Shown here one piece after another: positions 2,454 through 24,268 of a DNA stretch of 26,386 bases. Origin of the DNA: a virus; IMG/VR virus record IMGVR_UViG_3300028925_008625, positions 1 to 26,386 of that record; one strand, given 5' to 3'. The notes beneath the pieces are model-generated. The model saw only the letters and a list, made by a program, of their open reading frames with translations, searched no databases and had not been told where the DNA came from. The number at the start of each line of letters is the position of its first letter. Position 1 is the first letter of the stretch. A program made the position numbers and the translations under genes.

Positions 2454-3446
2454 TTACCAGTGTTTCATATGATTGACTAAGCCTTTAGACTCAGCCATAT
2501 CCATAAGTTCATCTATTAATTCAGCGGGTAGAAATGCCTCTTGGCCGGTGGTCCATTCATTTTTCCACATTCTACGCCACTCACTCTCTCGACCTTTAAC
2601 GGCTGGATCATTACGCCGCCCCTCTATATACGCTGGAGTCTTCCAGGGCATCCTGTTCTCATGGTCCCAATATACTAAATAACTGCCTGGTTGATAAGCT
2701 GTCCCGTATTGATAGACCGGTAAATCTTCTAACTCAGGAACCGGTGTACCGTGCTTAACATGCGGATCGTGCGGATCAGGCTTGACTACAGTTTCGTAAA
2801 TACTCCACAGCAGTTCACTCTCCCCATACCACCCCGCATACGTTGTGATAAAGCGTAGAGAGGCTGGCATGATAGAGAGGGGAACGAACTCATCCCAAAA
2901 CCTCGACATCGCATCGCCCTTATACGCCCACATCTCATCAAAGCAGGTAAACGCCTGACGACCACCCGCCTCACCCGCATAATCAGCCGGTACAAACTTA
3001 AGCCAGTGCGGTGAAGGATTAATCTGGCCGCCTTCCGCAAATTCTATCATGTTGTTCTTCGTTATTCGATCATGGTATCCTTCATCGACAATTTGCAGAA
3101 AAAGGGACTCATTCTTCTCCTTCATTATCTGCAAGTTTTTAACCACCCGATCAAACATACGTTCACCGGCTTGATCTTTGTCGTTAGCAAGGCTAAACGC
3201 ATTACCACCGTAATGACGACACCACCCGTAGGCTATAGCCCCTCCTATGGCCGTCTTACCCTCTTTCTTAGGCGTTGACCATACCACCGTTTCATAGGGC
3301 AGCTTACCCTCTTCATTGGCTGTAAACGCCTTATTCAAGATCCGGCGTTGATGGGGCTGAAACTCAACCAGCACTTTGGTGTCGTCTAAATAATATTCCC
3401 GTTCCATCAACTCGACAAAAGGACAGTCTGTAGAAGGCTCCGTCAT
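2454..3446 (-). CDS. terL (ATPase part): Terminase large subunit, ATPase domain only
   Basis: The terminase motor hydrolyses ATP to pump DNA through the portal. This 330-residue protein shows the whole N-terminal motor domain. It has an adenine-binding Q motif (FQPHQRRIL, residues 29-37) and Walker A STPKKEGKT (57-65). A typical following helix reads NDKDQAGERMFDRVVKNL, Walker B is AFTCFDE (165-171, catalytic E171), and the coupling motif is ITTYAG (200-205). The C-terminus has the usual linker phrase (WTTGQEAFLPAELIDELMD) and stops some 15 residues later. In full-length proteins of about 450-600 residues this is exactly where the RNase H-like nuclease begins. No nuclease Asp residues follow, because the next gene is the fibre. 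It overlaps the 881-residue gene by ATGA. A matching nuclease C-terminus lies at the far right of the window, so the enzyme seems to be split in two. Confidence 0.88.
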   Translation of the reverse strand: MTEPSTDCPFVELMEREYYLDDTKVLVEFQPHQRRILNKAFTANEEGKLPYETVVWSTPKKEGKTAIGGAIAYGWCRHYGGNAFSLANDKDQAGERMFDRVVKNLQIMKEKNESLFLQIVDEGYHDRITKNNMIEFAEGGQINPSPHWLKFVPADYAGEAGGRQAFTCFDEMWAYKGDAMSRFWDEFVPLSIMPASLRFITTYAGWYGESELLWSIYETVVKPDPHDPHVKHGTPVPELEDLPVYQYGTAYQPGSYLVYWDHENRMPWKTPAYIEGRRNDPAVKGRESEWRRMWKNEWTTGQEAFLPAELIDELMDMAESKGLVNHMKHW

Positions 3447-6113: not shown

Positions 6114-7748
6114 CTAATCCTCTGTTACGTCTTCATTTCCGAATGACCATTCATTTGTATCATCCCCACCTTCTTCTTCAACTATGATTTGTTGAGGAGC
6201 AGCCGTTGAAAAAAGAGTAGGTACACGACTCCAATCTTTTGCTATCGCAACTGGATCTTCACGATGTATACGATTTAACTCGGTGCGGTATATTGCTTCC
6301 CGATCTATTTGAGACTTTTTTGCTGCTTCCATGATACGAATTTCTAACGCATTAGGATCTTTAAAATTCGTACCTAACATCCTGTCGTAACTTGCAAACT
6401 CTAACTCACTAACCTGTGCGCCGGAACGAGCGTAAATAATGCCTTTCTTTAAATCTTGAAGAAGAGCATCAAACTCAACCAAGTCATCAGGGGCCGTAGC
6501 TTCACCCGTAAGAATATTCTCTATGGACTGTATTGAGCCTTCGATACGACCCACATACTCTCTTACTTCTGGCTTCTTTAGTAGCTTTAACAGACGGTCA
6601 GAAGCCGTTTGTATGTAGTAAGCACCAGTTAATTTATTATTTTCTGTTGCACTAAACCTTAATGGTAAACGATCAAAATCATTTACCATTGCCAATAATG
6701 CTTCTCTACTTGCTGACGATACTTGACTAGGGCCATATATGGAAAAAGCTGCGTTGATTACAGTTATCGCATCTTCTGGTGTCAACTCCCCTTTCATAAT
6801 TCGTGCAGGTAATAATGTAGTTAGCTCGACCGCATTTTGTATACCCGCAAATTGTAATTTATTTGTGTATCGTAGCTTTTGTCGTCCTGTTACAAGCTCG
6901 TCATGTAGTTCTTGTCTTTCTTTATAAAGGTCTGCCCCTCTTTTTTCGAAGGTTTCTCTAGCTTTTACTACATCTGGAATAATGGTAGTCGTTGTTTTAC
7001 CCGTAAGAGGATCAACTGATACCATTGCTCCAGTAGTTGTATTAACAAAAATACGTTTACTACTCGGACTGTTTTGTTTGAAAATAGCTAACAGTTCGTC
7101 GCTAACTGGTTCTATGCGTTCTTGACCACCAGGTTCGGTCGGTGGATAAACTACATACGGTGCTTTACCAAACATTTTAATCTCACCAGAACCAGTGCGA
7201 TTAATTGCGTCCCGTAACTCCATTTCCTGTTGTTCCAGAGTTATTTCACCAGACCGGCTTTGTAGCTCTTGATTCTGTTGGTAAATTTTAGCTTTTTCAG
7301 TCAAACCACGAGTCAACGGATGGCGATTATCCACTGTCGGTTCCGTTGCGCCTCTTCCTTGTATTAACTGTGCCATTTCTGGGTCTTCTGAGGCACGAGC
7401 CATAAGAAGATTAGTCGGACTTTTAGGATCGCCTCTCATGGGAAATGAAGGAAGTCCTGGCACTGTGATAGGTCCAGGGTGAGGAGGTAGCATACCTATC
7501 TCCCCCATCTGCCCCATGACAGTCTCTATAGCTGGAGCATTATTCGCGCCTATTGCCAACTCAAGTTGCTGTGTAAGTCTTTGTTCGGCATATTTGTTTG
7601 CTTCTAATTCTCGTTGCGCTTCATAGCGTTTCTGCTCTTTGTCAATTATATCCTGCTTATCTTCACGTTCACGATTGAGTAAGCGTTGACGGACATAACT
7701 GTCCATGCCAGTGTCAAGACCACGTGCTAAACTACGCAATATCGGCAT
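6114..7748 (-). CDS. Helical virion protein, probably internal, unrecognised family
   Basis: This 544-residue protein has a good ribosome site: AAGGAG lies 8 bases before ATG. Residues about 20-75 are strongly charged with Gln, Glu, Arg and Lys (NREREDKQDIIDKEQKRYEA) and look like a coiled coil. A Pro/Gly-rich linker follows (PPHPGPITVPGLPSFP). The C-terminal half (about 300-500) is alpha-helical, with a conserved-looking phrase IYARSGAQVSELEFASYDRM. The extreme C-terminus is acidic (VEEEGGDDTNEW). It lies in the run of four large genes between the nozzle and the terminase ATPase where podoviruses encode internal proteins. Function is inferred only from this position. Confidence 0.5.
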   Translation of the reverse strand: MPILRSLARGLDTGMDSYVRQRLLNREREDKQDIIDKEQKRYEAQRELEANKYAEQRLTQQLELAIGANNAPAIETVMGQMGEIGMLPPHPGPITVPGLPSFPMRGDPKSPTNLLMARASEDPEMAQLIQGRGATEPTVDNRHPLTRGLTEKAKIYQQNQELQSRSGEITLEQQEMELRDAINRTGSGEIKMFGKAPYVVYPPTEPGGQERIEPVSDELLAIFKQNSPSSKRIFVNTTTGAMVSVDPLTGKTTTTIIPDVVKARETFEKRGADLYKERQELHDELVTGRQKLRYTNKLQFAGIQNAVELTTLLPARIMKGELTPEDAITVINAAFSIYGPSQVSSASREALLAMVNDFDRLPLRFSATENNKLTGAYYIQTASDRLLKLLKKPEVREYVGRIEGSIQSIENILTGEATAPDDLVEFDALLQDLKKGIIYARSGAQVSELEFASYDRMLGTNFKDPNALEIRIMEAAKKSQIDREAIYRTELNRIHREDPVAIAKDWSRVPTLFSTAAPQQIIVEEEGGDDTNEWSFGNEDVTED

Positions 7749-7760
7749 TATATTTTCTCC

Positions 7761-9431
7761 TTAAGCTGCACTACCGGCAGCACTCCCTAAGAACTTCATA
7801 AGAGCCGACATTCCAGCCTCCCAACCATCGGCTCCAGAAGAGCCTTGCCCAGATCCAGCCACCTGTCCACCAGGCATACGACCTAAGAGATTAGAAAATG
7901 CGTCTACTGACCCAATACGTTGGTCAAAATCAATCTGGCGGTTTTGATTGAATAAGTCAGCAAGGCGTGAGAACTCATTAAAGTCACCTTGACGACCTTG
8001 TTGTGTTCTATCAAACTGAGATCCGGTCAACTGATCTTGTAGTTGCGAGGTAGCCGCCTGACGACCAAATGCTCCTTGATTCAAGGCTTCATTTAATTGA
8101 GCCGTTCCAGCGTCTCTACCGTATTGCCCTTGTGTCAAATCTTCCGTCAACTGCGCTCTTCCAGCGTCTCTACCGAATTGTCCTTGCGTCAATGCTTCAC
8201 CTAATTGTGTCTCTGTAGCTTCTCTACCAAACTTTCCTTGCGTCAGTGCTTCTTCTAACTGCGCCCCTTGAGCCTCTCTACCGTATTGACCCTGCGTTAA
8301 TGCTTCCTGTAGACCTAATCCACCCGTCATCTCATTGAACCCTTGCTGCCGTGTCCCAAGATCCCTACCATACTGACCCTGTTCTAACCCCTCAAGCATC
8401 TGCGTCGATTGCATCAACTCATTAATCTCTTGATTGCGCTGCGTCAGGCCGGACTGCTGTAGCGCGTTCATCATCTGTGCTTGCATCGGCATCATTTGCA
8501 GATTGGCATTGGTTGCCATGTTCATCATCTGATTCTGCTGTTGAGCTTGTAGGTCAGATCGTGCTGTATCATTAATCGTTGAGTTACCAAGTCCTCTATT
8601 GGTCATTTGCTCTTGTTGGTAGTTCCGTTCTGTTCCCTGTTGCCGTGCCAACTCATCCAGTAGCGGTTGTATCTGAGGCAAGACAGAAGGCGTACCAGCC
8701 GGTGTCATCGCGCCTGTCATTGCGTTCGCTAATGTATTTTGTATACCGGATATATCGTATGCACCCGTAGTTGGAGCATTTTGTAGACCCGATAATGCGG
8801 CATTAGATGTTCCTCCCCCAAGTGCATTTAAGGCCGGTACACCTGCCTGAGCATTAGTATATGGATTTAAGTTCGTTGCAGAAGTAGCAGACGTTGTCGT
8901 AGGGGAAAACACACCTTGGTTTGTAGCGGTGGGATTAAAAGCACCTTGAGTTGTAAGTGCTGGCGTAGCGGTTTGAGTTGTCGCTGTAGGACTAAACGGA
9001 GTAGCCCCTGTAGCAGTCGTTCCAGGTGTGAAGGCTGTTGCTTTCGTGGCACTGGCTTGAGGGTCAAAACTGGACTCAAATCCTGCTCCTGTGTACTTAG
9101 TGCCACCCGGTTGTTCGGGATTATTCCCCATAAAGGTTTCCCATGCGTTTCCTACCATATTACCCCATTTTGTTGCGTCTGATTCATAATCAGGATCGTT
9201 GTCTTCAAGCCACTTTTGATTCGTTCCACTTTGATTAGACACATTGCCTGTCCAATCGCTAGGTATCATATCCGAATTAACCGAAATCTCACCCCCACTA
9301 AAAGCAGTAGTGAGGTCATCATCGGTTAATTCATACCCGAACTTATCGGTAAACTTACTACCAATAGCAGACCTATCATCTGCTAATGTTCCACTCCAAT
9401 AGTCGTAGCGTATAGGATCAGTCAACGCCAT
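7761..9431 (-). CDS. Gln-rich internal virion protein with 18-residue repeats, putative
   Basis: This 556-residue protein has four visible parts. Residues 1-120 are a possibly folded head with Trp and Asp. Residues 120-195 are a Thr/Ala/Pro-rich linker with repeated phrases such as GAFNPTATNQGVFSPT. Residues 255-345 are a Gln/Met-rich helix (QMMNMATNANLQMMPMQAQM). Residues 347-483 carry repeats of 18 residues. The C-terminus is Gly/Ala/Ser-rich and weakly hydrophobic. No catalytic motif is seen. Its place after the repeat protein and before two large helical proteins suggests an ejected or internal core protein. The ribosome site is weak, and the upstream gene ends only 5 bases before its start, so coupling is likely. 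Confidence 0.5.
   Translation of the reverse strand: MALTDPIRYDYWSGTLADDRSAIGSKFTDKFGYELTDDDLTTAFSGGEISVNSDMIPSDWTGNVSNQSGTNQKWLEDNDPDYESDATKWGNMVGNAWETFMGNNPEQPGGTKYTGAGFESSFDPQASATKATAFTPGTTATGATPFSPTATTQTATPALTTQGAFNPTATNQGVFSPTTTSATSATNLNPYTNAQAGVPALNALGGGTSNAALSGLQNAPTTGAYDISGIQNTLANAMTGAMTPAGTPSVLPQIQPLLDELARQQGTERNYQQEQMTNRGLGNSTINDTARSDLQAQQQNQMMNMATNANLQMMPMQAQMMNALQQSGLTQRNQEINELMQSTQMLEGLEQGQYGRDLGTRQQGFNEMTGGLGLQEALTQGQYGREAQGAQLEEALTQGKFGREATETQLGEALTQGQFGRDAGRAQLTEDLTQGQYGRDAGTAQLNEALNQGAFGRQAATSQLQDQLTGSQFDRTQQGRQGDFNEFSRLADLFNQNRQIDFDQRIGSVDAFSNLLGRMPGGQVAGSGQGSSGADGWEAGMSALMKFLGSAAGSAA
7983..8306 (-). repeat. Six tandem 54-bp (18-residue) repeats
   Basis: Residues 376-483 of the 556-residue protein form six consecutive 18-residue units with consensus EALTQGQYGRDAGTAQLN. 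The last unit is degenerate (DQLTGSQFDRTQQGRQGD). A seventh, detached unit (EGLEQGQYGRDLGTRQQG) precedes at residues 347-364. The pattern of hydrophobic residues at L3, Y8 and L17 suggests a repeated helix or turn element. Confidence 0.9.
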
Positions 9432-9436
9432 AGTAA

Positions 9437-10945
9437 TTAGCCTATTACTCCGGCTATACCTGGAGTAAGACCTTCCGTGTGCGATATAATAATATCAATC
9501 GCATCTGTCTTCGGTAGACCAATATTTGTTAGCTCTGTTACTGCATCGTCTGCTGGTAGGACACCATCTCGTACATCCCTCAAAATTTGCTCTACTGGTG
9601 ATTCTGCCAGAACATCCGCCCCACCCTCACCTTGTTGCCTTGTCAATCTATCTAAGGTTTCTTCATCGAATTGTGCCAATGGTACCGGTGGTGTGTAGTC
9701 TCCCGCATATTGTCCCATTAAACCTTCTAAGTTGGGTACCCCGAAGTCTGCTTTCGATACCGGCCCCCTCATCCCCTCTAACAAGGTTGGGTCAGTGACT
9801 ACTCCCCGTAAATCATCACCTATCATAGTTGGGTCAGTGACTAAGCCCCGCATGCCCTCATCTAACAAGGTTGGGTTAGTGACCAAGCCCCGCATGCCCT
9901 CATCTAATAAGGTTGGGTTAGTGACCAAGCCCCGCATGCCCTCATCTAATAAAGTTGGGTTAGTCGCTAAGCCCCGCATGTCGTCATCTAATAAAGTTGG
10001 GTTAGTCGCTAAGCCCCGCATGCCCTCATCTAATAAAGTTGGATTAGTGACTAAGCCTCGCATGCCCTCATCTAACAAGGTCGGATTAGTGACTAAGCCT
10101 CGCATGCCCTCATCCACTAAGGTTGGATTAGTGACTAAGCCTCGCATGCCCTCATCCACTAAGGTTGGATTGGTGACTAAGCCTCGCATGCCCTCGTCCA
10201 CTAAAGTTGGATTGGTCACTAAGCCTCGCATATCGTCATCCACTAAAGTTGGATTGGTCACTAAGCCTCGCATATCGTCATCCACTAAAGTTGGGTTCTC
10301 TTCGCCTTTATATAGCTCTTCGCCCATAATCTTATTAGCCAAATACATCCAATCGTCAGGACCTCCCATACCAGCCGTAGAATTAGCAATCGCTTCCGTC
10401 AAGAAATCAATATCTATTGTAGGATTAAGATCAAGACCACGTAAAAACTGACCAATATCGGTTCGAGGATCAAACCCTCCTCCTCTTCCCGCTATAGTAT
10501 CAACAACCTTTGAATCAACTGTACCATCTTCACTTACAATAGGCACCAAATCTTCTGGAGTGGTAATAAAGTTATTACCACCATCCTCAGTAGATGTTCC
10601 TCCAGGATCTACGAAAATAACCGGATCTGTCGGAGCTACTTCTTCAACCGCTAGTCCATCGTCCCTACCATCCCCCTCTTCCGGCGAACCGGTCCAAGGG
10701 ATTATATCAGCCAGATTCCCCCCCTGATACTCCTGTACACCTTGAGGCTGAAAGCGATCTGATACAAACATCGTTCTTGGTTGGTTGGTATAAAAATCAG
10801 CAGTAGCCTTACCTTGGCCCAAGATCCCTGGCAGAAAAGCTACCTGATTCCGCATGTTCCAATCTCGCACCATATTCTGGAACTCTGCCGAACGTGCTGC
10901 CGCAGCCGCTATTCTTTCTTGACTATCTTCAAAATCTGCTGCCAT
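9437..10945 (-). CDS. Repeat-containing virion protein (thirteen 14-residue repeats)
   Basis: This 502-residue protein has GGAG 6 bases before ATG. Residues 1-75 begin with a helix (FEDSQERIAAAAARSAEFQN). Residues 75-150 are acidic and probably disordered. Residues about 160-215 look folded. Residues 217-397 are thirteen tandem repeats of NPTLVDDDMRGLVT type. The tail (about 400-502) has acidic helices and ends in a hydrophobic Gly-rich stretch. The gene lies directly after the nozzle gene and leads the run of putative internal proteins. No family is recognised. A regularly spaced acidic-Met-Arg motif suggests multivalent binding to a partner. The same motif occurs in the protein at 20628-21353. 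Confidence 0.6.
   Translation of the reverse strand: MAADFEDSQERIAAAAARSAEFQNMVRDWNMRNQVAFLPGILGQGKATADFYTNQPRTMFVSDRFQPQGVQEYQGGNLADIIPWTGSPEEGDGRDDGLAVEEVAPTDPVIFVDPGGTSTEDGGNNFITTPEDLVPIVSEDGTVDSKVVDTIAGRGGGFDPRTDIGQFLRGLDLNPTIDIDFLTEAIANSTAGMGGPDDWMYLANKIMGEELYKGEENPTLVDDDMRGLVTNPTLVDDDMRGLVTNPTLVDEGMRGLVTNPTLVDEGMRGLVTNPTLVDEGMRGLVTNPTLLDEGMRGLVTNPTLLDEGMRGLATNPTLLDDDMRGLATNPTLLDEGMRGLVTNPTLLDEGMRGLVTNPTLLDEGMRGLVTDPTMIGDDLRGVVTDPTLLEGMRGPVSKADFGVPNLEGLMGQYAGDYTPPVPLAQFDEETLDRLTRQQGEGGADVLAESPVEQILRDVRDGVLPADDAVTELTNIGLPKTDAIDIIISHTEGLTPGIAGVIG
9755..10297 (-). repeat. Tandem array of 42-bp units (14-residue repeats)
   Basis: Twelve 42-bp units and a final 39-bp unit run without interruption in frame. 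Eleven are near-identical, with consensus NPTL(V/L)D(E/D)(G/D)MRGL(V/A)T. The last two diverge (DPTMIGDDLRGVVT, then a unit lacking one residue). Neighbouring units share variants: units 1-2 have DDD, units 3-5 have VDEG, units 6-11 have LLD, and units 7-8 have LAT. This is the pattern expected from stepwise tandem expansion. Confidence 0.97.
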
Positions 10946-10954
10946 AATAATCTC

Positions 10955-12493
10955 CTATGCTGCGACTTGTTCAGCGCGTTGTTTGAACTCTATATGATAT
11001 CCATTGACTCTAAACCACTGATCGGCCCCTGTTGTCTCAAACGTCAAACGACAGTTATAGCCTCTTCGCACATCGGTGAAGCGGAAATAGTCACCACGTT
11101 GCTCACCACCCCCCCATAAGGCGGCACCCCACTCACCTACGCCCCATCCATCACTCACCCCACCGGCTGTAGAGGTCATGGTCTGCCCACCAGGACTAGG
11201 TAGATCCTTACGCCCTAATTTGGTTTTAAGCGTTAAAGGATACGCACCATTTGTTTGAAAGTCAGCAAATATACGTCCGTAATTCTTCATATACCCTAAC
11301 CGACTTTGAGAATGTTCCGAAGTCTGTAATCGTCCGGTATAGTTGGTGCCATCCCAATCATCGCCAGAGTGCAATTCGTATATTTCGCCTGTCGAATTAC
11401 CTACTACTTGTAGGTCCGTTCCACTTGAGCGATAGATACATCCTGCGGTTAAATTAGCTCTGTTATGGCGCGTAAAGCGTAGACTGCTCCTACCCCTCGC
11501 GGTATTGCATATGATGCCCTCAGAAGGGGTGGAAGTAGCCGTTCCATATTGAAACCAATACTCATCTCTGTCTTCGTTGTAAGTAGCCCAATTCGTCGCT
11601 TGAAGTCCTTTTTCGCGCCGATCAAGCAGGGGCTTCACCCGATCCGATACGTTATCTACATAAAAGCCACCAGTAGAGCTTGTCGCTACGGCACCGGCAA
11701 TGCCGTTATCTGATTCAAACATCAAGAAACCACCCCGCGCCTCTGCGACAGTGAAATGCCCTGCGGTGCCTATAATATGCGATACCTCACGTACAGCCGT
11801 TTCACTTAAATTGTTGGTAGGCAACATACGGAATATCTTACGCCGCTTAAATATGAAGAGATTGCCCATAAAAACGGTTACGCCGGTCACATCGCCTGAA
11901 CCACGATCTATCTGTATCGAACCCGCATCGGCACCCGTCCATGTCTCTGCATCATTTACCGCAGAATAACTGGCGGTATCGCCACTAAAAAGCCACCATC
12001 GTCCACCCCAACTGGTGCCAAACTTACCGGTAGAAGGAGGACTGCCACCCAAGGCACTGACCCCTGCACTGCTCGTATACTTTTTAGGGCTATCCACACC
12101 ATTGGAAATCAGTAATAGATTAGCGGCAGTAGTAGCACCGTAAAACATACCGCCAGACCATCGAACATCTGTACCCGTATTGAAGCCCGTGCCGTTAGTA
12201 GACTGTGCAAAATTACCAGCATTGCGTTCGTAAATCTTACCGTCTGCGGCTGCGGCAATAAGGCGTGATCCTTCGCTGTAATCAAATAGACCCGTCACCT
12301 TACTATCGCCTGTCGTCGTGGTGCCAATTTGTGAAGCACCGCGCATCTTTTCCGGTTCCTCTGTATCCCGCAGATAAACCATATTAAGCGCATCCCATAC
12401 GGCACGAGGATCAAACTCAGGGTTTCCAGCATGAAGACGGCGATCTATGCCGTTGCCCAAGCGATAGTGTGTGTCGTGATTCCATTGGCTCAT
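10955..12493 (-). CDS. Tail nozzle / tail hub protein, beta-propeller-like
   Basis: This 512-residue protein is full of short beta-strand phrases with aromatic and Gly residues. They include VTGLFDYSEGSRLIAAAADG, WGGRWWLFSGDTASYSA and VTVFMGNLFIFKRRKIFRML, which repeat in the manner of propeller blades. The N-terminus (NGIDRRLHAGNPEFDPRAVW) resembles the start of podovirus tail hub proteins. It follows the adaptor and the L,D-transpeptidase, the expected place for the protein that closes the tail tube (P22 gp10 or T7 gp12 role). The start overlaps the previous stop by ATGA. The C-terminus is a beta-rich cap domain with Trp/Gly repeats (GWGVGEWGAALWGGGEQ). The fold is inferred from the repeat pattern; the role comes from gene order. 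Confidence 0.7.
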   Translation of the reverse strand: MSQWNHDTHYRLGNGIDRRLHAGNPEFDPRAVWDALNMVYLRDTEEPEKMRGASQIGTTTTGDSKVTGLFDYSEGSRLIAAAADGKIYERNAGNFAQSTNGTGFNTGTDVRWSGGMFYGATTAANLLLISNGVDSPKKYTSSAGVSALGGSPPSTGKFGTSWGGRWWLFSGDTASYSAVNDAETWTGADAGSIQIDRGSGDVTGVTVFMGNLFIFKRRKIFRMLPTNNLSETAVREVSHIIGTAGHFTVAEARGGFLMFESDNGIAGAVATSSTGGFYVDNVSDRVKPLLDRREKGLQATNWATYNEDRDEYWFQYGTATSTPSEGIICNTARGRSSLRFTRHNRANLTAGCIYRSSGTDLQVVGNSTGEIYELHSGDDWDGTNYTGRLQTSEHSQSRLGYMKNYGRIFADFQTNGAYPLTLKTKLGRKDLPSPGGQTMTSTAGGVSDGWGVGEWGAALWGGGEQRGDYFRFTDVRRGYNCRLTFETTGADQWFRVNGYHIEFKQRAEQVAA

Positions 12494-13821
12494 TTTATTC
12501 TCAATGCCCCACGATGCAATGGACGAGTATCATAAGGTAATATCTCGACAGATGACCCTACATCCAAATACTCACCTACTCTTAATATATCGTCCTCTGT
12601 AAAACGCAAGCACCCATGCGATATAAACCCCTCATTCTCAAATCCACCACCTTCAGCCTTATCGCCCTGCTTATGAGGTCCGTGTAGCCCATATCCTTTC
12701 CCTGCATCCTCACCAAGTTTTGGGTAGGTATATCTTACATCGTACGGCTGATCTTCACTAGTGATAGGTGCGCCAGTAAACTGATCTAAATTAGATGCTT
12801 GAGTCAATCCCATCCATAACGGCTCATACCCACTGCCCCCTGCCATAGGCACTTCATCTTTAACTTTAAAAAAGCCGGTAGGTGAGAAATACTTTTTCCC
12901 ATACCGTGTACCAGTAGTATCACCGGTCCCTACCTGAAACTGCTCTATAGAAGTACCTATCGCATCTAATATCTCTGCTGTATTGTTATTTGGATCTATT
13001 ACCAACTTATACGGTGCTTGCGGCGAAGGATCAGCCACTTCTTCCAAGGCATCTCCCGTAACCACCACTTCACCAGGGGGTGATTCATAGGACCCTATCG
13101 CCTTCTGACTACGTATTACTGCATCCGTAATAGTCGGTGATATCTCGACCTTCTTGATATCGACACTCTCCTCTTCTACGGGCATGGGTAGTTCTGCGGG
13201 TTGATCTATAATGGCCGATGGGTACTTCACCGGTTCTGGTAACGGACCATCAAAAGGAGTTTGTCGATCTATACGCTCTAATTGCGATGACGGAGAGGTA
13301 AACTCTTCTCCTTGAAATCTCTTTGTCGATGGAAGCGATGGTGGCTCTAAATCATCTATATCAACATCCATAAGGTCTACGTCATCAAGACTCATATCAT
13401 CTGATGCGAAACCGATTGGCTCTTTGGGTCTTACCGGCGGCACCCCTGAACGTGATAGTTGGATATCTAATTCGGGTGGAAGAGATGGTCCCTCTATACG
13501 CTCTAATGGAGAAGAAGGTAACGTAGGTTCTTTACCTTGGAATCTGGCTATAGGCGGGGAAAGCGCATCGTCTACATCAGCCCTATCAACTATGTCCCTT
13601 TTTGTCGTCACCACCGTTTCGTTCATTACTATTGGATCGTCTTGAGAACGTCCTGCCGATTCGCGCTTATTTGACTCAGGATTATCTACTACACGACGAG
13701 TAACGCTCGTATAGCTGTCTCTATCAAAGAGAACAGCATCAATACGACCATCGTCTCTTTCCGTAAGTATCCATTCTCTATTTGTACCTGGATCGCCTAA
13801 CCCTACGTCTTTATAGTTCAT
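12490..13821 (-). CDS. L,D-transpeptidase (YkuD domain) with long disordered N-terminal region
   Basis: YkuD enzymes use a catalytic Cys to make or exchange 3-3 cross-links in peptidoglycan or to attach proteins to it. The C-terminal domain (about residues 268-432) shows the family's course. A first strand pair reads YKLVIDPNNNTAEIL, followed by VGTGD and SPTGFFKVKDE. The active-site His is in YGLHGPH (H380), and the signature SHGCLR follows at 401-406 with catalytic C404 and R406. Residues 1-45 look folded. Residues 45-265 are Pro/Asp/Glu/Ser-rich and probably disordered, with a duplicated phrase (RFQGKEPTLPSSPLERIEG near 93 and RFQGEEFTSPSSQLERIDR near 168). No signal peptide is seen. ATGA overlaps on both sides tie it to the adaptor and nozzle genes, which suggests a virion-associated enzyme acting on the cell wall at entry. 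Action in the infected cell is an alternative. Confidence 0.9.
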   Translation of the reverse strand: MNYKDVGLGDPGTNREWILTERDDGRIDAVLFDRDSYTSVTRRVVDNPESNKRESAGRSQDDPIVMNETVVTTKRDIVDRADVDDALSPPIARFQGKEPTLPSSPLERIEGPSLPPELDIQLSRSGVPPVRPKEPIGFASDDMSLDDVDLMDVDIDDLEPPSLPSTKRFQGEEFTSPSSQLERIDRQTPFDGPLPEPVKYPSAIIDQPAELPMPVEEESVDIKKVEISPTITDAVIRSQKAIGSYESPPGEVVVTGDALEEVADPSPQAPYKLVIDPNNNTAEILDAIGTSIEQFQVGTGDTTGTRYGKKYFSPTGFFKVKDEVPMAGGSGYEPLWMGLTQASNLDQFTGAPITSEDQPYDVRYTYPKLGEDAGKGYGLHGPHKQGDKAEGGGFENEGFISHGCLRFTEDDILRVGEYLDVGSSVEILPYDTRPLHRGALRIK

Positions 13822-15080
13822 CGTTGTGCGCCTTTAATATCGAAGTATATACCGCTACGAGTAGGTATCGTTACTCCGTAATCTCTGCGGTAGGTCTGAA
13901 GGTCAAAGGCAGCATCAATCTCTTCCCTATTTTCACGCCGCATAAGATGACCTATAGACGACTGATACCGTTGCTCCCACATCTGCGCCCTACCTCTGTC
14001 TTCATTGAACATGGCGGCTCTTACCTTGCACCGAGCTTGCACGGCTTGATAGGCGATTCCAGGGGCATTGCCGCCAAAGATATCGGTATCGAAAACACTG
14101 GCATCGTTGAATAATTCCTTATACCAGATATCAACTAAATACGCTTTCGTTGGAAACGGCCAAAGTAAAAGGCGCGGGTCTTCATTTACTGCATTACTTA
14201 CTATCGTAGCGAGGTGAGGACGACCACTGGTGTTGCGGTGAAGATCACCACCCGACTCTGACATGATGCGGGTCATATTCACCATATTAATCGAATTATC
14301 ACCCATTTGCCCCGACAGACCCTGCGCCCATGTAGCCGACTGACCATAGGTAATATGCTTGATCTCATCCATCACCCTTGTCGTATTAGTACTGGTCACG
14401 GTAGAGGTGACGCTACTCGTGCCGCCTGTAACTGTTTCACCTACCGTAAAAGCAGCACTTGCTCCACTTAAATATACAATAGATTGGCTTGTGTCATGTA
14501 GCACTATTGTTGCCGTAGAGCCACTGGAACCACCCGTAATAGTCTCACCCGTGGTATACGTGCCGGATGCTGACGATGCGACTAATGTTACGGTCCCTAA
14601 GATGGGTAAGGGGTAAGTGTCTTGGAAGATGCGATATCCGCTACCTGTGGTGGTCGTGCCTACGTAGTTACGCGACCCTGCCCCCGCCGATACCCCCAAT
14701 GTCAACGTATCAGGTGATCCACTGGTGACTACCTTTGCAATGGGATACGACTCACTGTCCTGAGTGCGCCTGATCCACATGTCGGTAGTCACTGAGCCGA
14801 AGTTGTTAGCACTTACGTCATCGGCATCGACACTATTGACGGTAGGTGATCCATTAGTAATAGCGACTTGTCCTGTGGTGATATCAGCAGTCGTTACAAA
14901 GTTACTATGCTTCAACGCCCATCGAAACTCACCATACGTCATTATCTCTTCAACGCACTCATTGACCTCTTCTATGAGTATAGACTGAAGTATATTGGTG
15001 GTCGTGAACGAACTTATCGCCGGATCACCAATCTCTTTTAAAGCTGAATTAACACAGTAGCCCAAACTTCTTGAAGCCAT
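13818..15080 (-). CDS. Head-tail adaptor (connector) protein with inserted beta repeats
   Basis: In this 420-residue protein the helical N-terminus (residues 1-60, ending in MTYGEFRWALKHS) and the C-terminal half are typical of podovirus adaptor proteins that ring the portal (P22 gp4 or T7 gp11 role). The C-terminal half includes LLLWPFPTKAYLVDIWYKEL and helices ending near residue 390. Residues 60-235 are beta-rich. They contain two copies of a short motif, TTGETITGGSSGSTATI (about 176-192) and TVGETVTGGTSSVTSTV (about 212-228), which look like an inserted pair of small beta modules. GAGG lies 4 bases before ATG. A 10-bp-arm hairpin sits in the short gap upstream. It overlaps the L,D-transpeptidase gene by ATGA. 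Confidence 0.72.
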   Translation of the reverse strand: MASRSLGYCVNSALKEIGDPAISSFTTTNILQSILIEEVNECVEEIMTYGEFRWALKHSNFVTTADITTGQVAITNGSPTVNSVDADDVSANNFGSVTTDMWIRRTQDSESYPIAKVVTSGSPDTLTLGVSAGAGSRNYVGTTTTGSGYRIFQDTYPLPILGTVTLVASSASGTYTTGETITGGSSGSTATIVLHDTSQSIVYLSGASAAFTVGETVTGGTSSVTSTVTSTNTTRVMDEIKHITYGQSATWAQGLSGQMGDNSINMVNMTRIMSESGGDLHRNTSGRPHLATIVSNAVNEDPRLLLWPFPTKAYLVDIWYKELFNDASVFDTDIFGGNAPGIAYQAVQARCKVRAAMFNEDRGRAQMWEQRYQSSIGHLMRRENREEIDAAFDLQTYRRDYGVTIPTRSGIYFDIKGAQR

Positions 15081-16847: not shown

Positions 16848-17753
16848 CTATACGCCAGGACTACCAAAGATACCACGAGGATCACTCCAGCCACTCGACT
16901 GAGCAAACAAGCCCGTGATCTTATAATCCTTGGTATCGAAATCATACTCATAATCAGTCCAGAACTCTTCACGATCATACAGCAAGAGTTCATGGTCTCC
17001 TTTATCAGCAAGAATAAACCATCCATCCGTATCCGTCAGGTAGTTCCACACCTGTGAGTCGAGCAACCCGTTGACCGCATTGATGGCATTGCTATTGTCC
17101 TCAGACTGTAGCGTCGAGCGCAGCAGTCGATCCGCTTCAAAGCGCAACTCCTTCGGCACCAGCAAGCACTTAGGCTCAATAGCCACACGCTTACCACCAC
17201 CATCACGGAAGTCACTAAAGTCGATCAACGCTTGCTCCAGCGAGGTCTGCGACAGATCAGCCGCAGAAGACAACTCATTAGCGTAGGTCGATCCATCTTC
17301 ACGAACATGAGCCGTAGAAAACAACTCAACACCATCCGCGCCGGTATAACTGGAATCGAACCCATTGTTGAAATGATTAGCAAGGATCGTTTCTTCCGTT
17401 GCTCGTGCCGAACGTGCAAGTTCCACCGCCAACTTCTCCATCGACGCATACAGATCATCACGGAGCATGTTGCGCGTCACCCGCATACCCGAACCATAGT
17501 CCAGATGCGTGTAGGTATTACGGAACCCTTCATTGTTCGTCACGTAATCAATAGGTTGACCTTCCAGCTTCTGCGTCATAATACCCACGCCGCCGATGGT
17601 CAACGTATCTTCTTGGTACTGGCTGGAGGACCTTACGTTAAAGATACTCCGGCCAATGACCGAGCGTTCCATCCATTCATGGAAAATAACCCTGTCAATG
17701 TCTCTAAGCGTTGCCGAGAAAGGAAACGCACCGATTGTATGTATTGAAGCCAT
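16848..17753 (-). CDS. Major capsid protein, HK97 fold (Mu gpT-like)
   Basis: This 301-residue protein forms the head shell. The N-terminal arm (RDIDRVIFHEWMERSVIGRS) is followed by a spine-helix region (MRVTRNMLRDDLYASMEKLA, about residues 90-130). The phrase GVELFSTAHVREDGSTYAN is of the kind found in Mu gpT-like capsids. The C-terminus ends DPRGIFGSPGV, also typical of that group. The length suits a capsid without a cleaved delta domain, consistent with a separate scaffold gene at 19081-19935. The start has AAGGAA at suitable spacing. The 108-base gap after it holds two hairpins, consistent with separate control of capsid abundance. Confidence 0.9.
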   Translation of the reverse strand: MASIHTIGAFPFSATLRDIDRVIFHEWMERSVIGRSIFNVRSSSQYQEDTLTIGGVGIMTQKLEGQPIDYVTNNEGFRNTYTHLDYGSGMRVTRNMLRDDLYASMEKLAVELARSARATEETILANHFNNGFDSSYTGADGVELFSTAHVREDGSTYANELSSAADLSQTSLEQALIDFSDFRDGGGKRVAIEPKCLLVPKELRFEADRLLRSTLQSEDNSNAINAVNGLLDSQVWNYLTDTDGWFILADKGDHELLLYDREEFWTDYEYDFDTKDYKITGLFAQSSGWSDPRGIFGSPGV

Positions 17754-17768
17754 AGTATGATTCCTTTC

Positions 17769-18320
17769 TTAAACGCCGACACCGACATTAGTTTCCATGA
17801 AATGCTCATTGACCGAACAAATCAACTCAGCGTGATCGCCAATCAGATTGTCGGAACGATTTAGAAGACCGTGTATACGCATCACCAAAGCAGCAGTAAC
17901 AGCCGCATCGGTTGCAGACAATTCCATGCCACTGATACCCGTAGTAGTGCTACCGGCATGAGTAACAGCAATCTCTGTATTATTACCATACATAGCAACA
18001 GCAGGTGTACCACTCGCATCTACTTGAGCGTAGTACATCTGAGCCGGATGATAATGAACAAGAATTGTTCCTGCCGTAGTAGCAGCAACGAGAGCTTTTT
18101 GTGACGATGATACTGACGTAGCTGATTCAGCAGCACCCACATTATGCGTTTCTGATCCAGTACTTTCCGTAACAAGACCATCCGCTTCAAGGGCCATCAT
18201 ATCGCCTTTGAAGACAGCCAAGTTATCGTTACCATTAGCATATGCGTTTAGCCCATACATAACACCCGTAGCGTTGAAGCCATGCGGGGTGTCTGCATTG
18301 GCTGGACTTGCAGCAGCCAT
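17769..18320 (-). CDS. Putative capsid decoration / head-stabilising protein
   Basis: This 183-residue protein is rich in Ala, Gly, Thr and Val with a beta-strand pattern. A first half describes a small beta-barrel-like course (NLAVFKGDMMALEADGLVTE, then SQKALVAATTAGTILVHYHP). A second half ends in AELICSVNEHF, similar to the proteins often encoded directly before the capsid gene in aquatic podoviruses. The gene lies 15 bases before the capsid start and would be made in similar amounts. No signal peptide or catalytic motif. A decoration role is inferred from position and composition. Confidence 0.55.
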   Translation of the reverse strand: MAAASPANADTPHGFNATGVMYGLNAYANGNDNLAVFKGDMMALEADGLVTESTGSETHNVGAAESATSVSSSQKALVAATTAGTILVHYHPAQMYYAQVDASGTPAVAMYGNNTEIAVTHAGSTTTGISGMELSATDAAVTAALVMRIHGLLNRSDNLIGDHAELICSVNEHFMETNVGVGV

Positions 18321-18326
18321 AACTAT

Positions 18327-19088
18327 TTATCCTCTTGTAACCGAGATACCATCTCTAGCTCTTGAATCACCATATTGAAAGTTATGACCATCTTCGCGTT
18401 CTACTTTACCCGCCACAGCCCTTGCCACTTGTCCGGCTTGAGTAGACGAGTAATTCTTTGATTTCAAACTGTCATAGATAAGTCGCTCAACACCTTCACG
18501 ATTCTGTGCAAGTGCTTCCTTACTAGCGGCCAAACCTTGTGTGACACGTGATCTTTTCTGTGCCTGTCGAGCCGTAGCAAGGCGTTCTGGCACCCTGACA
18601 AGAATTAACTCATTAGCCTTTACATCACCCGTTTCTGACGAACCTTGCATGGGCATATCCGCTAATTCCTCTTTGGTCATCTTGACGACCTGTCCACCCT
18701 GGTCAATCAATCGCTTGATCTTCTCAGGGCTTTTCCAAATCAGTTTATCGCCAGCCTTACGGCAATCTTCGCGTAAACGATCTGGAATATACAATGCGTC
18801 AAAACGGTCATATTCATCTTGCATCGTAAGACCGGCAATGTCATGTGGCGTAGGATCGTCAGGCCCCCTCAAGTCGGGACTGAGCGTATCCTGCTGCATT
18901 GCCATGATGCACTGATGAGGGTGCTTCGATTTGATATGTCCCTTTAATGCTTTGGGGTCTATCTCTTCTCCTATGCCTAATCGCGCACCGCAGAAGGGAC
19001 AGTCCTTACCATCGGAATGTTCAAAGACATAATCAACACCGGCCTGAACGATTGCATCTTCTTTCGGGTCCTTAGTGTCATTAGCCAT
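18327..19088 (-). CDS. Zinc-finger-like protein in the head operon, unknown role
   Basis: This 253-residue protein has a C2H2-type arrangement near the N-terminus: C30 and C33 in DCPFCGARLG, then H51 and H56 in LKGHIKSKHPHQC, with extra H58 and C60. The middle part is charged (RLREDCRKAGDKLIWKSPEK). The C-terminal part (about 165-235) is helical and basic (TARQAQKRSRVTQGLAASKE), with a Gly/Arg-rich end. It overlaps the scaffold stop by 8 bases and is followed by the decoration and capsid genes, so it is co-expressed with head assembly. It might bind DNA, RNA or a head protein. No named family is recognised. Confidence 0.65.
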   Translation of the reverse strand: MANDTKDPKEDAIVQAGVDYVFEHSDGKDCPFCGARLGIGEEIDPKALKGHIKSKHPHQCIMAMQQDTLSPDLRGPDDPTPHDIAGLTMQDEYDRFDALYIPDRLREDCRKAGDKLIWKSPEKIKRLIDQGGQVVKMTKEELADMPMQGSSETGDVKANELILVRVPERLATARQAQKRSRVTQGLAASKEALAQNREGVERLIYDSLKSKNYSSTQAGQVARAVAGKVEREDGHNFQYGDSRARDGISVTRG

Positions 19089-20627: not shown

Positions 20628-21353
20628 TTAATATCCCTGATTAGGCAACATATCAGAATTAGGGTTGTTATATCGGACACCTGGCTCAACATTAGTATTA
20701 GTTGCAGGTCCAGCGGGGAACAATACGCCATCTGGACCTAGTCTATAGAGCATACCATCTTGCTCATGGTATCCTGTTCTCCTCATGTAGTCCCACTCCT
20801 CTGCACTAAGATGGTCGGAAGTAAGGTACCCAGAAGATCGTCCTGCCATATCCCTGCCATATTGCGTTCCCCTGCCAGGAGAATCAGGAGAGGGAGGACC
20901 CGAGGGCACAAAACTTGGTCCTGCGGTCATACCTTCGTGGTAGTCCTGGGATGCGCCAATGGGGTCCACCATTGGTTCGCCCGTTTCATGGTGAATAGGA
21001 TAAGGCGCATAATGCCTGGCCTGATCCTCCGGCCAGCCTCCTCCTGCTTGACCCCCTGCTGCATCTCTTAATCTCTCCTGCGCTCGTTGATTTTCGATTC
21101 GATCAGAAGACGCAAGTTTATACCTTCGATTTGCTTCTGGATTTGCTGCCATGCGCCCAAGGCTTTGCGATACTGGGCGCATATCCTCATCGGCTAAAGG
21201 TGGGTTAGGTGTTGGGCGCATTGGCGAATTTAAGTTACGCATATCCCTATCCGACAATCCTTTATTGCCCATAGTAGCGTTCATCATAGACGCTATCTTT
21301 GCTTGCTGATTCGGACTTTGCCGACTAGCATAATTTGACATATCGTTTGGCAT
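20628..21353 (-). CDS. Disordered portal-adjacent protein with two DMR motifs
   Basis: This 241-residue protein is rich in Pro, Gly, Asn, Arg and Tyr and is probably largely disordered. Residues 30-43 (NKGLSDRDMRNLNS) and 50-63 (NPPLADEDMRPVSQ) match the 14-residue repeat NPTLVDDDMRGLVT of the protein at 9437-10945. The C-terminal part (LSAEEWDYMRRTGYHEQDGM and LYRLGPDGVLFPAG) looks folded. It starts two bases after the portal stop. The shared motif suggests that this protein and the repeat protein bind a common partner, or that one holds the other. No family is recognised. Confidence 0.6.
   Translation of the reverse strand: MPNDMSNYASRQSPNQQAKIASMMNATMGNKGLSDRDMRNLNSPMRPTPNPPLADEDMRPVSQSLGRMAANPEANRRYKLASSDRIENQRAQERLRDAAGGQAGGGWPEDQARHYAPYPIHHETGEPMVDPIGASQDYHEGMTAGPSFVPSGPPSPDSPGRGTQYGRDMAGRSSGYLTSDHLSAEEWDYMRRTGYHEQDGMLYRLGPDGVLFPAGPATNTNVEPGVRYNNPNSDMLPNQGY
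21165..21266 (-). repeat. Two divergent copies of the DMR motif
   Basis: Residues 30-43 and 50-63 of the 241-residue protein carry NKGLSDRDMRNLNS and NPPLADEDMRPVSQ. Both keep the L-x-D-x-DMR core of the repeat array at 9755-10297. Confidence 0.6.
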
Positions 21354-21355
21354 AA

Positions 21356-23701
21356 TTACACTCCTGCTCCAGTGAGGTTAGGCATAGCACCATTAGCGGC
21401 ACCATTAGCGGCACCATTAGCGGCACCATTATTCGCTGCGGGACTTGCTCCTACATTACCCATTGCGCCTTGTTGCGCTCCGTCCAACTGAGCTACATTC
21501 GCGGCGGTAGGCTGCTGTTGTCCTTGTTGGGGCGGTTGACCCCCTCCTGCTGCCGCCATTGCCGCCTGTTGCTGCTGCATCGTAGCTTTCTGCTGCTTCT
21601 GTTGCACCTGTTGCTGCAAGTGCATCATATGACCCGCCATATTGGGTTGATTCATACTTTGAAATGCCGATGATTGTATATGTGCCATATGCTCTTGTAT
21701 ATGGCGATCATCGTTATCATTAGGATGGACTACAGCCCCTTGGCCTAAACCAAATATCTGCTGGTCCATTTCCCCATTTTCTTCATCCGCATCTTTAGGC
21801 ACACCGGACGATAACGCTTCTTTCGGCCCAATGAACTGCTCTGGGTTTTGAATATCCACCGAATGAAGGGCGAAGTTAAGCACTTCCCACATCTTAGCCG
21901 GATCTTGCATGATGATAGGCGAACTAGCAGCCAACTGTGAAAGAGTCTGCGCTTGCTCCTGGCGCATCATAGAGCCGTACAACCCTGCATTAGCTCCTAT
22001 CCTGAAGTCATACTCGCCCCGCATCCACATCTCTTTGCGCGATAACTGCTGCGTAAGGGGTCCCTCTTTACCTTGAAGGCGCAGGGATCGCTCTTCCGGC
22101 CCAAACTGCAACTCCATGTTGTAGATCGTCCGGCAAAGAAACGAAAATGCCTCTGCATCCTGCGAAGAAGTCTCTCCCATACGAGCCATAGACTCTTGCT
22201 GCGTTCCTACAAACCCTGTCGCATGACGCGAAGCGGCACCCCTGGTAGGACTCATCCCCAAGAAAAGGTCCGTAACGCCCATGACCCGCTCTACTAAGGT
22301 ATAGAGCAACTGCTCCTCTTGAGCATAGAAAGAGGTCACATTCTGTAGTTGGGGAAAGCGCACATCGTTGATATCGTCTACCGGCACCCCCTTGAGAGGT
22401 CGTAGCTGTATCTTCTCTGGATTGATCGTGGACGTAGCTCTGTAGAAGAAGAAGGGCATGTTCGTCGCAAAGCCTACATCCATCCGCATATTATGTATGG
22501 TGTCGAGTTCGGCACTGAGGTGCTTAGCGATCTCCATCACGCCCATACTATACCAACGGGTGCCTACGGTCTGATAGTGCATCTCCAGCAGAGGACGTTC
22601 ATCTTGCCAGTAGATATCCGACAACCGATAGGCACCTATCAGCTTACGGGGGGCTGTAGCGGCAAAAAAGACACACTCTGTCCACTCTTCTTCGCCCTCT
22701 TCATTCTCCAGCGGCCACGGCATAAACCACCGTAAGACCTCAAACTCTGGGTTGGGACGGACAGTAGGGGTGCGCCGTGTAGAGAGAGATCGCTGCATCC
22801 CCTCATGGCGATCTTGCGTTTTGACACGTTGCTGATTACTGGAGGTAACGGCATCACCGGAGCGGTCTTGACTTGGGGCGTTGTCTATCCACCAATCGCG
22901 CTTCTTCATGTCATCATCGTCGTCTATATAACCATACGATGAATCTTTCAACTGCCAGATAAGGGATAGGTTCTGAAAGGTGCGTAACCCTACGAAGTCC
23001 GATCCACCTGGGTTAGACTCGGTAAGCGGCTGGAGGTTAAAGCCCTCTTTAGACTTGATTAGGTCATCCCACTCCAACGGGAACAACACCGGCCCATCAT
23101 AGCGCACAGCCCGTTTCAATGTCGTTTCTTGGGCAGACTGAATGACGGGTTGTCCGTCATCATCAATCATCGGGGTGCCATCGGGATTAAACAGGAAAGC
23201 AGGAGCAGCAGTCTCCTCTAACGCACGGTAGGTATACTCATCTACGGCATACGATATAAGACCTACTGCTGCGCCGTGTATACAGCGCATCTTAGATATC
23301 TTAGACCACATGGCACGTGCGTTCATGCGTTTAGGCTGTAGGTGCCAATCGACTAACTTACAGGCATCACGGAAAATCTCTTGGTCGTCGTCTTCTTCCG
23401 CTTTACCACTAACCAAAGGGGTCTGTGACCATACACCGGTAACAAGACGGGTATTGATTGAATCGACCAACCAATACGGCATCTGCACGTGTAAGTTAGA
23501 CGACCCTTTCCACGGACCAGCCCTGTTAGAGTCCACCTGACCTCTGAACATCTCATCATACCCAACGTGCTGCTTAGTCCATTTACTGCGTTCTTCTACC
23601 CTATCACGATAGAGGTGAAATATCGTCTGTAGGATGTCTTCTTTTTGATCTTCAGATAGATCAAGCAGTTCAGGAGGAGCAAAATTAACAGCTTGTGCCA
23701 T
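21356..23701 (-). CDS. Portal protein
   Basis: The portal is the dodecameric ring at the head vertex through which DNA passes. This 781-residue protein has the course of podovirus (P22-like) portals. A helical N-terminus (DQKEDILQTIFHLYRDRVEE) and a wing region with NLHVQMPYWLVDSINTRL come first. A central stretch follows with IAKHLSAELDTIHNMRMDVG and LVERVMGVTDLFLGM (about 440-490). A long crown/stem helical region runs to about 650. The last 100 residues are Gln-rich and then Ala/Asn/Gly repeats (GAANGAANGAANGA), probably disordered. GAGG lies 6 bases before ATG. A candidate promoter is centred about 50 bases upstream, which would make this the first gene of the head/tail operon. Confidence 0.88.
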   Translation of the reverse strand: MAQAVNFAPPELLDLSEDQKEDILQTIFHLYRDRVEERSKWTKQHVGYDEMFRGQVDSNRAGPWKGSSNLHVQMPYWLVDSINTRLVTGVWSQTPLVSGKAEEDDDQEIFRDACKLVDWHLQPKRMNARAMWSKISKMRCIHGAAVGLISYAVDEYTYRALEETAAPAFLFNPDGTPMIDDDGQPVIQSAQETTLKRAVRYDGPVLFPLEWDDLIKSKEGFNLQPLTESNPGGSDFVGLRTFQNLSLIWQLKDSSYGYIDDDDDMKKRDWWIDNAPSQDRSGDAVTSSNQQRVKTQDRHEGMQRSLSTRRTPTVRPNPEFEVLRWFMPWPLENEEGEEEWTECVFFAATAPRKLIGAYRLSDIYWQDERPLLEMHYQTVGTRWYSMGVMEIAKHLSAELDTIHNMRMDVGFATNMPFFFYRATSTINPEKIQLRPLKGVPVDDINDVRFPQLQNVTSFYAQEEQLLYTLVERVMGVTDLFLGMSPTRGAASRHATGFVGTQQESMARMGETSSQDAEAFSFLCRTIYNMELQFGPEERSLRLQGKEGPLTQQLSRKEMWMRGEYDFRIGANAGLYGSMMRQEQAQTLSQLAASSPIIMQDPAKMWEVLNFALHSVDIQNPEQFIGPKEALSSGVPKDADEENGEMDQQIFGLGQGAVVHPNDNDDRHIQEHMAHIQSSAFQSMNQPNMAGHMMHLQQQVQQKQQKATMQQQQAAMAAAGGGQPPQQGQQQPTAANVAQLDGAQQGAMGNVGASPAANNGAANGAANGAANGAMPNLTGAGV
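21387..21431 (-). repeat. 12-bp direct repeats at the portal C-terminus
   Basis: GCACCATTAGCG is repeated three times, with a fourth copy of nine bases. It encodes the GAAN repeats in the low-complexity portal tail. Such short in-frame repeats vary easily in number by slippage. Confidence 0.9.
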
Positions 23702-23837: not shown

Positions 23838-23994
23838 TATTGCCTTTTTTGCGCTGTAAGGGCGTTTCTATGCCCAATTTTGCGCATAAGTTAATGAAGT
23901 TCTGTGTTCGTAGGCGCAAGGCACGACGCGCATCTTCATTGGTGTTGTACATACGGCAGACCCGCCTTAACTGCTCTTCACTCACCTTCGACAT
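23818..23994 (-). CDS. 58-residue basic HTH-like protein
   Basis: I choose ATG at 23994 (MSKVSEEQLRRVCRMYNTNE), which overlaps the GroES stop by 17 bases. The frame stays open to 24063, but the extra residues look like antisense-quality sequence. The body suggests a tri-helical, helix-turn-helix-like unit (EEQLRRVCRMYN, DARRALRLRTQNFINLCAKL), followed by a basic tail (QRKKGNKLPKNS). It may be a small DNA-binding regulator. A very short terminase small subunit is an alternative, since none is otherwise seen. The ribosome site is weak, so translation probably depends on the GroES gene. Confidence 0.55.
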   Translation of the reverse strand: MSKVSEEQLRRVCRMYNTNEDARRALRLRTQNFINLCAKLGIETPLQRKKGNKLPKNS

Positions 23995-24268
23995 AGGCCA
24001 TGATTTCTGATTCGGGCAATAACAGGTACCACTCGCCCTCAAATTTAACCTCCGTGCCAGCAAATTGCGGCACGATAGCTACTTTTCCAGCCTCGACCTC
24101 ATCTACATCTACGCCTACTTCTAGTATCTGTGCTTCCTGCGAAGGTCGTATCGCACTGTCGGGTGTGTAAAGGATGCTATCTTCAAATGGGTCATGCGCG
24201 GCCATTCTCTGCAATAGGACCCGCTGGCGTGTCGGATGCACCGTCAGGGGTATCTGGTCGATCATCAT
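23978..24268 (-). CDS. GroES-like co-chaperonin (Cpn10)
   Basis: GroES caps GroEL during folding; phages such as T4 (gp31) supply their own cap to fold capsid protein. The 96-residue length is usual for GroES. Start chosen at the ATG after GGGAGG with 6-base spacing. The fold order is visible: an N-terminal strand (VHPTRQRVLLQRM), then a mobile loop with hydrophobic tripeptide ILY at residues 32-34 (E. coli IVL). A barrel strand (SQEAQILEVG) leads directly into VEAGKVAIVPQFAGTEVKFE, and the C-terminus is LLLPESEIMAYVEGE, close to E. coli ESDILAIVEA. The roof hairpin between the barrel strands is almost absent, as in T4 gp31. No GroEL gene is in the window, so the host GroEL is the presumed partner. 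It overlaps the upstream gene by 77 bases. Confidence 0.85.
   Translation of the reverse strand: MMIDQIPLTVHPTRQRVLLQRMAAHDPFEDSILYTPDSAIRPSQEAQILEVGVDVDEVEAGKVAIVPQFAGTEVKFEGEWYLLLPESEIMAYVEGE

Follow-up and report, generated by a model that had tools for sequence, protein, structure and literature searches.

The enzymes closest to the protein described here are the bacterial L,D-transpeptidases (LDTs) of the YkuD/ErfK-YbiS-YcfS-YnhG group, such as B. subtilis YkuD and E. coli LdtB. An LDT of this type is encoded in virus record IMGVR_UViG_3300028925_008625, a linear fragment of 26,386 bases that was analysed over its whole length (the window, or G000) and nearly all of which is a single minus-strand structural module. 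The phage protein shares with the bacterial enzymes the catalytic domain, the predicted fold, and the HG and SHGC.R motifs. Together with its phage relatives it differs from them in lacking a signal peptide, in possessing an N-terminal module and a long linker, in having a longer spacing between the catalytic His and Cys, and in forming a separate clade. The reading we lean towards, with guarded confidence, is that a competent LDT is packed into the virion, delivered to the periplasm at ejection, and acts on the wall at entry.

Wall enzymes encoded in phage structural modules and proposed to act at injection have been described among the virion peptidoglycan hydrolases and polyvalent proteins. 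A survey of them lists lysozyme, SpoIID-like and DD-peptidase domains, with no mention of YkuD or of transpeptidases (PMC5512222). YkuD domains in phages are known but rare. The PhaLP passage on them lists only 10 in phage proteins, as lytic domains, and describes no portal-linked cargo family (PMC8310338). Gp80 of cyanosiphophage Mic1 is likewise a phage-encoded LDT-like protein and is expressed late (PMC11237433), but it has 154 residues, is encoded beside ParB and DNA polymerase genes, and carries an SAGC motif; gp80 gave no match to PF03734, and no similarity between it and the phage LDT family was found. Fold-level YkuD matches also occur in other phage proteins. Profile comparison could not confirm them for a Nodularia phage protein annotated as lysozyme that has a structural YkuD match, or for a 623-residue protein of cyanomyophage P-TIM68 with a YkuD-like fold and a degenerate motif; the length of the latter matches that of an open reading frame (ORF) at 6787-8658 in a baseplate-hub cluster. 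A limited literature search, which left subscription papers mostly outside, turned up neither an account of an L,D-transpeptidase in a virion nor a portal-linked family of the architecture reported here, and the portal-linked cargo family appears to be new.

Two other systems offer parallels for delivery. The internal proteins of T4 have nothing in common but a capsid targeting sequence (PMC3012670), a short common N-terminal tag on different sequences such as is also found in one lineage of LDT carriers (L175, see below). The T4 proteins act in the cytoplasm, however, and for the phage LDTs we infer the role of the tag, packaging and delivery. The type VI secretion system effector Tlde1a is an LD-transpeptidase fold that an injection machine places in the periplasm of another cell (PMC9638812). 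Tlde1a kills its target cells and has a capping subdomain and disulfides, whereas the phage LDT has a single Cys.

Domain, active site and likely chemistry

The Pfam YkuD profile (PF03734) matches residues 271-427 of the window LDT with a score of 42.9 bits, where the cut-off is 23.4, and an E-value of 9.7e-11, covering profile positions 2-146 of 146. An alignment with 45 bacterial LDT domains from genome contigs shows no variation at H380, G381, S401, G403, C404, or R406 and at least 90% conservation of H402; the window domain was also aligned with E. coli LdtB. C404 is the sole cysteine of the protein, and a single Cys is likewise present in each of nine relatives (10/10 checked). The distance from His to Cys is 24 residues in the window and 23-26 in ten phage proteins, compared with 16 in all 78 bacterial homologues. 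The 20 residues between H380 and S401 fall outside the published HXX14-17(S/T)HGC spacing (PMC9638812), around which bacterial members themselves vary. Judged by Pfam score, catalytic residues and fold, which all agree with the family, the window LDT is a spacing variant of the YkuD motif. An initial annotation of this DNA had recognised the domain from SHGCLR and an upstream His, and the profile match, the fold matches and the intact H380-G381 and S401-R406 motifs bear this out.

Structure prediction, which the initial annotation had named beforehand as a check, returned a YkuD fold. The AlphaFold model of the domain (predicted local distance difference test score, pLDDT, 76.8; predicted template modelling score, pTM, 0.75) has B. 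subtilis YkuD as its best PDB match (E 3.3e-7), with moderate template modelling (TM) scores of about 0.55, perhaps partly because the window domain has a 33-residue insertion that is missing in the relatives L002 and L004. There were 61 PDB matches below E=0.001, and the 50 listed are YkuD-fold enzymes, both LDTs and the LD-carboxypeptidases Csd6 and Pgp2. A profile built from nine phage domains alone matches B. subtilis YkuD structures at E=1.9e-8; this profile was required, as a phmmer search of PDB with the single LDT protein found nothing. The full-length model was poor beyond residues 1-50, and a fold search with it gave nothing useful. The LDT carries an apparently intact, apparently active YkuD enzyme domain.

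Scans with the LDT and its domain, the nozzle, the capsid and the portal found 18 viral contigs carrying the gene, including the window. All are fragments, they represent few independent lineages, and the E-values of locus searches are relative to the candidate stretches searched. The proteins range from 349 to 782 residues, and most share an architecture consisting of an N-terminal module of about 50 residues, a variable Pro/acid-rich linker, a short helical region that is conserved, and finally the YkuD domain. The N-terminal module is kept in the relatives except in L240 and L265. In a tree, nine phage domains form one side of a branch against the 45 bacterial domains (support 100/100). A single pattern search supplied the bacterial sample, which may therefore not include the closest relative among bacteria.

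Between the window and L002, the YkuD domain shows a nonsynonymous proportion (pN) of 0.029 and a synonymous proportion (pS) of 0.149. Synonymous change exceeds amino-acid change in all regions of the LDT when the window is compared with L002 and L004, and the catalytic domain changes least over longer distances. The LDT of the window clade is under purifying selection. This selection bears on the possibility that the domain does no catalysis and serves the virion as a peptidoglycan binder or a structural plug, its fold kept for adhesion. The altered active-site loops of L240 (SAGC) and L265 (SHAC) would fit such a role, as would the degenerate motif on the YkuD-like fold of the P-TIM68 protein, but the catalytic Cys, the HG motif and the Arg are kept in all members examined. 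A purely adhesive function is therefore highly improbable.

The residue two positions after the catalytic Cys is informative about the reaction. LDTs with transpeptidase activity have Arg at this position, while most DpaA-like hydrolases have Ala or Asn (PMC8263019). Arg is present in 11/11 aligned proteins and also in L256 and L258, and the Ala or Asn of DpaA-like amidases is found in none of these; transpeptidation or exchange is thus favoured over DpaA-type hydrolysis. Alternatively, a virion-borne YkuD protein could stand in for a virion lysozyme, making the wall looser or piercing it for DNA entry through L,D-carboxypeptidase or endopeptidase activity. YkuD-fold hydrolases do exist, as DpaA (PMC8263019) and the fold matches Csd6 and Pgp2 illustrate, and Tlde1a is both an LD-carboxypeptidase and a transpeptidase (PMC9638812). 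No lytic domain turned up in a Pfam scan (E up to 10) of the four large ORFs that lie downstream of the nozzle, and the His-Cys loop, eight residues longer than in the 78 bacterial homologues, could change the choice of acceptor. We nevertheless regard hydrolysis at entry as unlikely, given the transpeptidase-type Arg and given that the sacculus would stay closed if a tetrapeptide lost its last residue.

Placement of the LDT gene in phage genomes

In the window and in L001-L004, the LDT gene lies between genes for an adaptor and a nozzle, and in L015 it directly follows the adaptor gene, where that short contig ends. The ATGA coupling to both neighbours that had been described for the window is real, each overlap being 4 bp, but L002 and L004 have an extra ORF of about 125 codons between adaptor and LDT and so the upstream overlap is not universal. 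No LDT-like gene was found between adaptor and nozzle in 20/20 relatives that have both on one contig. Pfam and PHROGs searches with proteins that take up LDT slots in relatives gave no significant family, only sub-threshold hints of DUF3990 and ART-PolyVal. The adaptor/nozzle slot is an arrangement local to the closest relatives of the window phage.

Other carriers have the gene elsewhere. It immediately precedes the portal gene in L077 and L078 and lies within the portal-scaffold interval in L175. In L160, L256, L258, L161, and L162 (G051), which have a terminase of the phrog_38 type, it is directly after or close behind the portal gene. In L164 (G053) and L163, which belong to the same phrog_38 group and carry the same LDT, one small ORF stands between portal and LDT. 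The portals of this group have no detectable similarity to that of the window. The L265 gene is just ahead of a phrog_156 portal gene and near a phrog_1328 capsid gene, and in L240 (G095) the LDT gene is downstream of a fibre gene, flanked by ORFs of 331 and 1240 residues. The YkuD domains of the window and L160 are about 67% identical despite their dissimilar portals, which indicates gene exchange between phage groups. The LDT gene moves between phage groups and turns up again and again in the head-tail module, three times beside unrelated portals. Since the adaptor/nozzle position is only local, portal-linked virion cargo is a better description than the tail gene proposed initially: the overlaps with adaptor and nozzle and the common slot of the window clade stand, but a survey of relatives, which had also been suggested, placed other carriers beside the portal, in the portal-scaffold interval, or beyond the fibres.

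Of 50 contigs scanned whole, 7 have YkuD, and the LDT itself had served to retrieve five of these. YkuD was not found in 44 contigs of major-capsid relatives, mostly about 30-40% identical in capsid, which makes the capsid a poor guide to the tail module, nor in the nearest named phage records (MW202601, HTVC103P, HMO-2011, and MW202554). A tblastn search of 50,697 phage records with the full LDT protein gave no match. A query restricted to the domain, with E allowed to reach 10, returned only two records, both labelled 'Acinetobacter phage'. The one opened, CAKLQF020000018.1 (L071; 'Acinetobacter phage MD-2021a'), was rejected because it looks like a bacterial contig, with hemE, entC and genes for enterobactin.

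Proposed delivery and action at entry

The maximum mean hydropathy of the N-terminus is 0.14 for the window LDT and at most 0.98 among ten phage proteins, as against at least 1.6 in 92% of the 78 bacterial homologues (median 2.23). Because the phage LDTs lack a hydrophobic N-terminus, export through Sec is unlikely. A periplasmic enzyme without an export signal would need some other means of delivery, and the siting near portal genes together with the tag data makes ejection with the genome the simplest route.

The tag was found in one lineage. The L175 LDT begins with MTMMPNIDPRMLEMISSSMSSG, and this LDT has its tag, MTMMPNIDP...MSSG, in common with five ORFs of different C-terminal content, the tag-bearing ORFs in L171, L172, and L175 having E-values of 6e-7 to 8e-5 on other bodies. 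The tagged ORF listed for L175 in Table 1 is ART-like by weak signals (DUF3990, E=0.0056; ART-PolyVal, E=0.11), both below Pfam cut-offs. In L177 and L178, a tag of 36 residues (35/36 identical) heads one ART-like body and one unrelated body. The occurrence of the same tag on different bodies suggests a swappable virion cargo with a common packaging or targeting signal, and the window LDT's own N-terminal module may serve for packaging. A 1,875-residue ORF (L238 1-5629) of the LDT-bearing phage G051 shows a weak match to ART-PolyVal close to the C-terminus, with an E of 0.0043 that falls short of the curated cut-off.

According to the reading we favour, the LDT would be made in the cytoplasm without a secretion signal, packed at or near the portal vertex by means of its N-terminal module and flexible linker, and released into the periplasm when the particle empties. 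Once in place, the enzyme would use C404 to attack stem peptides containing meso-diaminopimelate in an L,D-transpeptidase-type reaction, either 3-3 cross-linking or exchange of amino acids or peptides. The wall around the entry site would thereby be remodelled or resealed, possibly with an exclusion effect. Several observations weigh against this account. The L175 tag is not recognisable in the window LDT, whose N-terminal module differs, and so packaging by a tag is extrapolated to it. Siting beside structural genes is suggestive but is not proof of a structural role. Most relatives lack the gene, which makes the LDT an accessory function, and the divergent members L240 and L265 have altered motifs.

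A further alternative is that the LDT is a late protein outside the virion that aids lysis or assembly, for instance by acting on the wall after the holin has opened the membrane, in which case its place in the operon reflects co-expression only. The late operon position would suit this role, as would Mic1 gp80, a late-expressed L,D-transpeptidase with a suggested role in lysis (PMC11237433), PhaLP counts YkuD among phage lytic domains (PMC8310338), and the Nodularia phage protein with a YkuD match is annotated as a lysozyme. The LDT-bearing relatives G062 and G053, however, encode a separate M15 peptidase, away from the LDT gene, that could serve lysis, and the recurrent portal location and a tag shared with ART-like ORFs would be unexpected for a lysin. 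A lysis role is accordingly quite doubtful, more so than hydrolysis at entry. The window fragment had no match to an M15 peptidase, and no search aimed at a holin or spanin was made. The LDT had initially been thought to be perhaps the only peptidoglycan-directed enzyme of the virion; none other is recognisable in the scanned ORFs, but the M15 peptidases of G062 and G053 mean that the LDT is not always the only wall enzyme of the phage.

LDTs attach the C-terminal lysine of Braun's lipoprotein to the wall. A delivered phage LDT could similarly fasten a phage protein, possibly its own C-terminal Lys, or 3-3 cross-links to the wall, sealing the entry site and hindering further infection. C-terminal Lys is found in 4/7 lineages (...LRIK in the window clade, ...RRESK in L160, ...VGAK in L161/L162, and ...EVGK in L164), against a background of 19/472 annotated-ORF C-termini, but the pattern was noticed post hoc and among related sequences. 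The reading is weakened by L256, a later find close to L160 whose C-terminal residue is Arg, and we give this fastening mechanism the smallest chance of all those considered.

Known wall-acting virion enzymes mostly cut. If one of them instead joins or exchanges peptide stems, wall repair or modification at the entry site would be part of the infection strategy of some phages, and this would bear on how cells survive genome delivery and on the blocking of secondary infection. Since membership of the family is decided by sequence, the matter could be put to a direct test in any carrier that is in culture. The combination of tags and bodies points to a portal-side cargo system, in which ART-like bodies and others have the tag in common, within a little-known group of phages.

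Features of the window and of related loci

Table 1. Parts of the LDT, other features of the window, and tag-sharing ORFs of related loci (marked by locus)
Feature	Coordinates	Strand	Remarks
Large terminase, short ATPase	2454-3446	-	330 aa; matches part of phrog_9
14-residue-repeat protein	9437-10945	-	many copies (NPTLVDEGMRGLVT)
Nozzle-like gene	10955..12493	-	homologous to HMO-2011 and HTVC103P structural proteins; overlaps LDT end
LDT/nozzle ATGA overlap	12490-12493		
LDT (YkuD) gene	12490..13821	-	443 aa; ATG start; no signal peptide
YkuD catalytic domain, residues 271-427	12541..13011	-	Pfam, fold match, phage-only profile
S401-H402-G403-C404-L405-R406	12604..12621	-	
H380-G381	12679..12684	-	
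33-residue insertion, about 342-374	12700..12798	-	ahead of HG motif; missing in L002 and L004 and in most of the family besides
Conserved helical region, residues 223-265	13027..13155	-	precedes catalytic domain; IKKVE...AVIRSQKAIGSY.SPPGEVVVT..ALEE
Linker, residues 51-222	13156..13671	-	low-confidence model; Pro/acid-rich; length and sequence variable family-wide
N-terminal mini-module, residues 1-50	13672..13821	-	three predicted strands and helix start; predicted pLDDT about 80-89; motif G.PG...EW...DG.I.A.LFD....RR
Adaptor/LDT ATGA overlap	13818-13821		
Adaptor gene, SU10-type	13818..15080	-	Pfam PF24175, E=1.1e-7; overlaps LDT start
Capsid gene, Mu gpT-like	16848-17753	-	
Scaffold-like gene		-	in structural module, listed between portal and capsid
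241-aa ORF following portal	20628..21353	-	N-terminal helix MMNATMG
Portal gene	21356..23701	-	LDT adjoins portal in several relatives
Cpn10/GroES-like co-chaperonin	23978-24286	-	PF00166, E 5.5e-11; just upstream of portal
Large ORFs of 556, 544, and 881 aa		-	in structural module
Fibre-like ORF			truncated by window end
L171 tag-sharing ORFs	8937-9965, 12322-12927		near portal/scaffold/adaptor genes
L172 tag-sharing ORFs	7869-8504, 12432-13019		near portal/scaffold/adaptor genes
L175 tag-sharing ORF	9024-9971		near portal/scaffold/adaptor genes
L177 tag-sharing ORF	17688-18758		near portal/scaffold/adaptor genes
L178 tag-sharing ORF	14276-14914		near portal/scaffold/adaptor genes

The MMNATMG helix of the ORF that follows the portal gene bears a weak likeness (E 0.01-0.9) to short motifs in portal-neighbouring ORFs of relatives. 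The terminases of relatives are similar in length to the short terminase of the window (319 and 324 residues), and the short form may thus reflect a natural separation from the nuclease part. The 14-residue-repeat protein varies between 502 and 474 residues in near-identical relatives, and the Cpn10/GroES-like gene was also detected by profile in many relatives.

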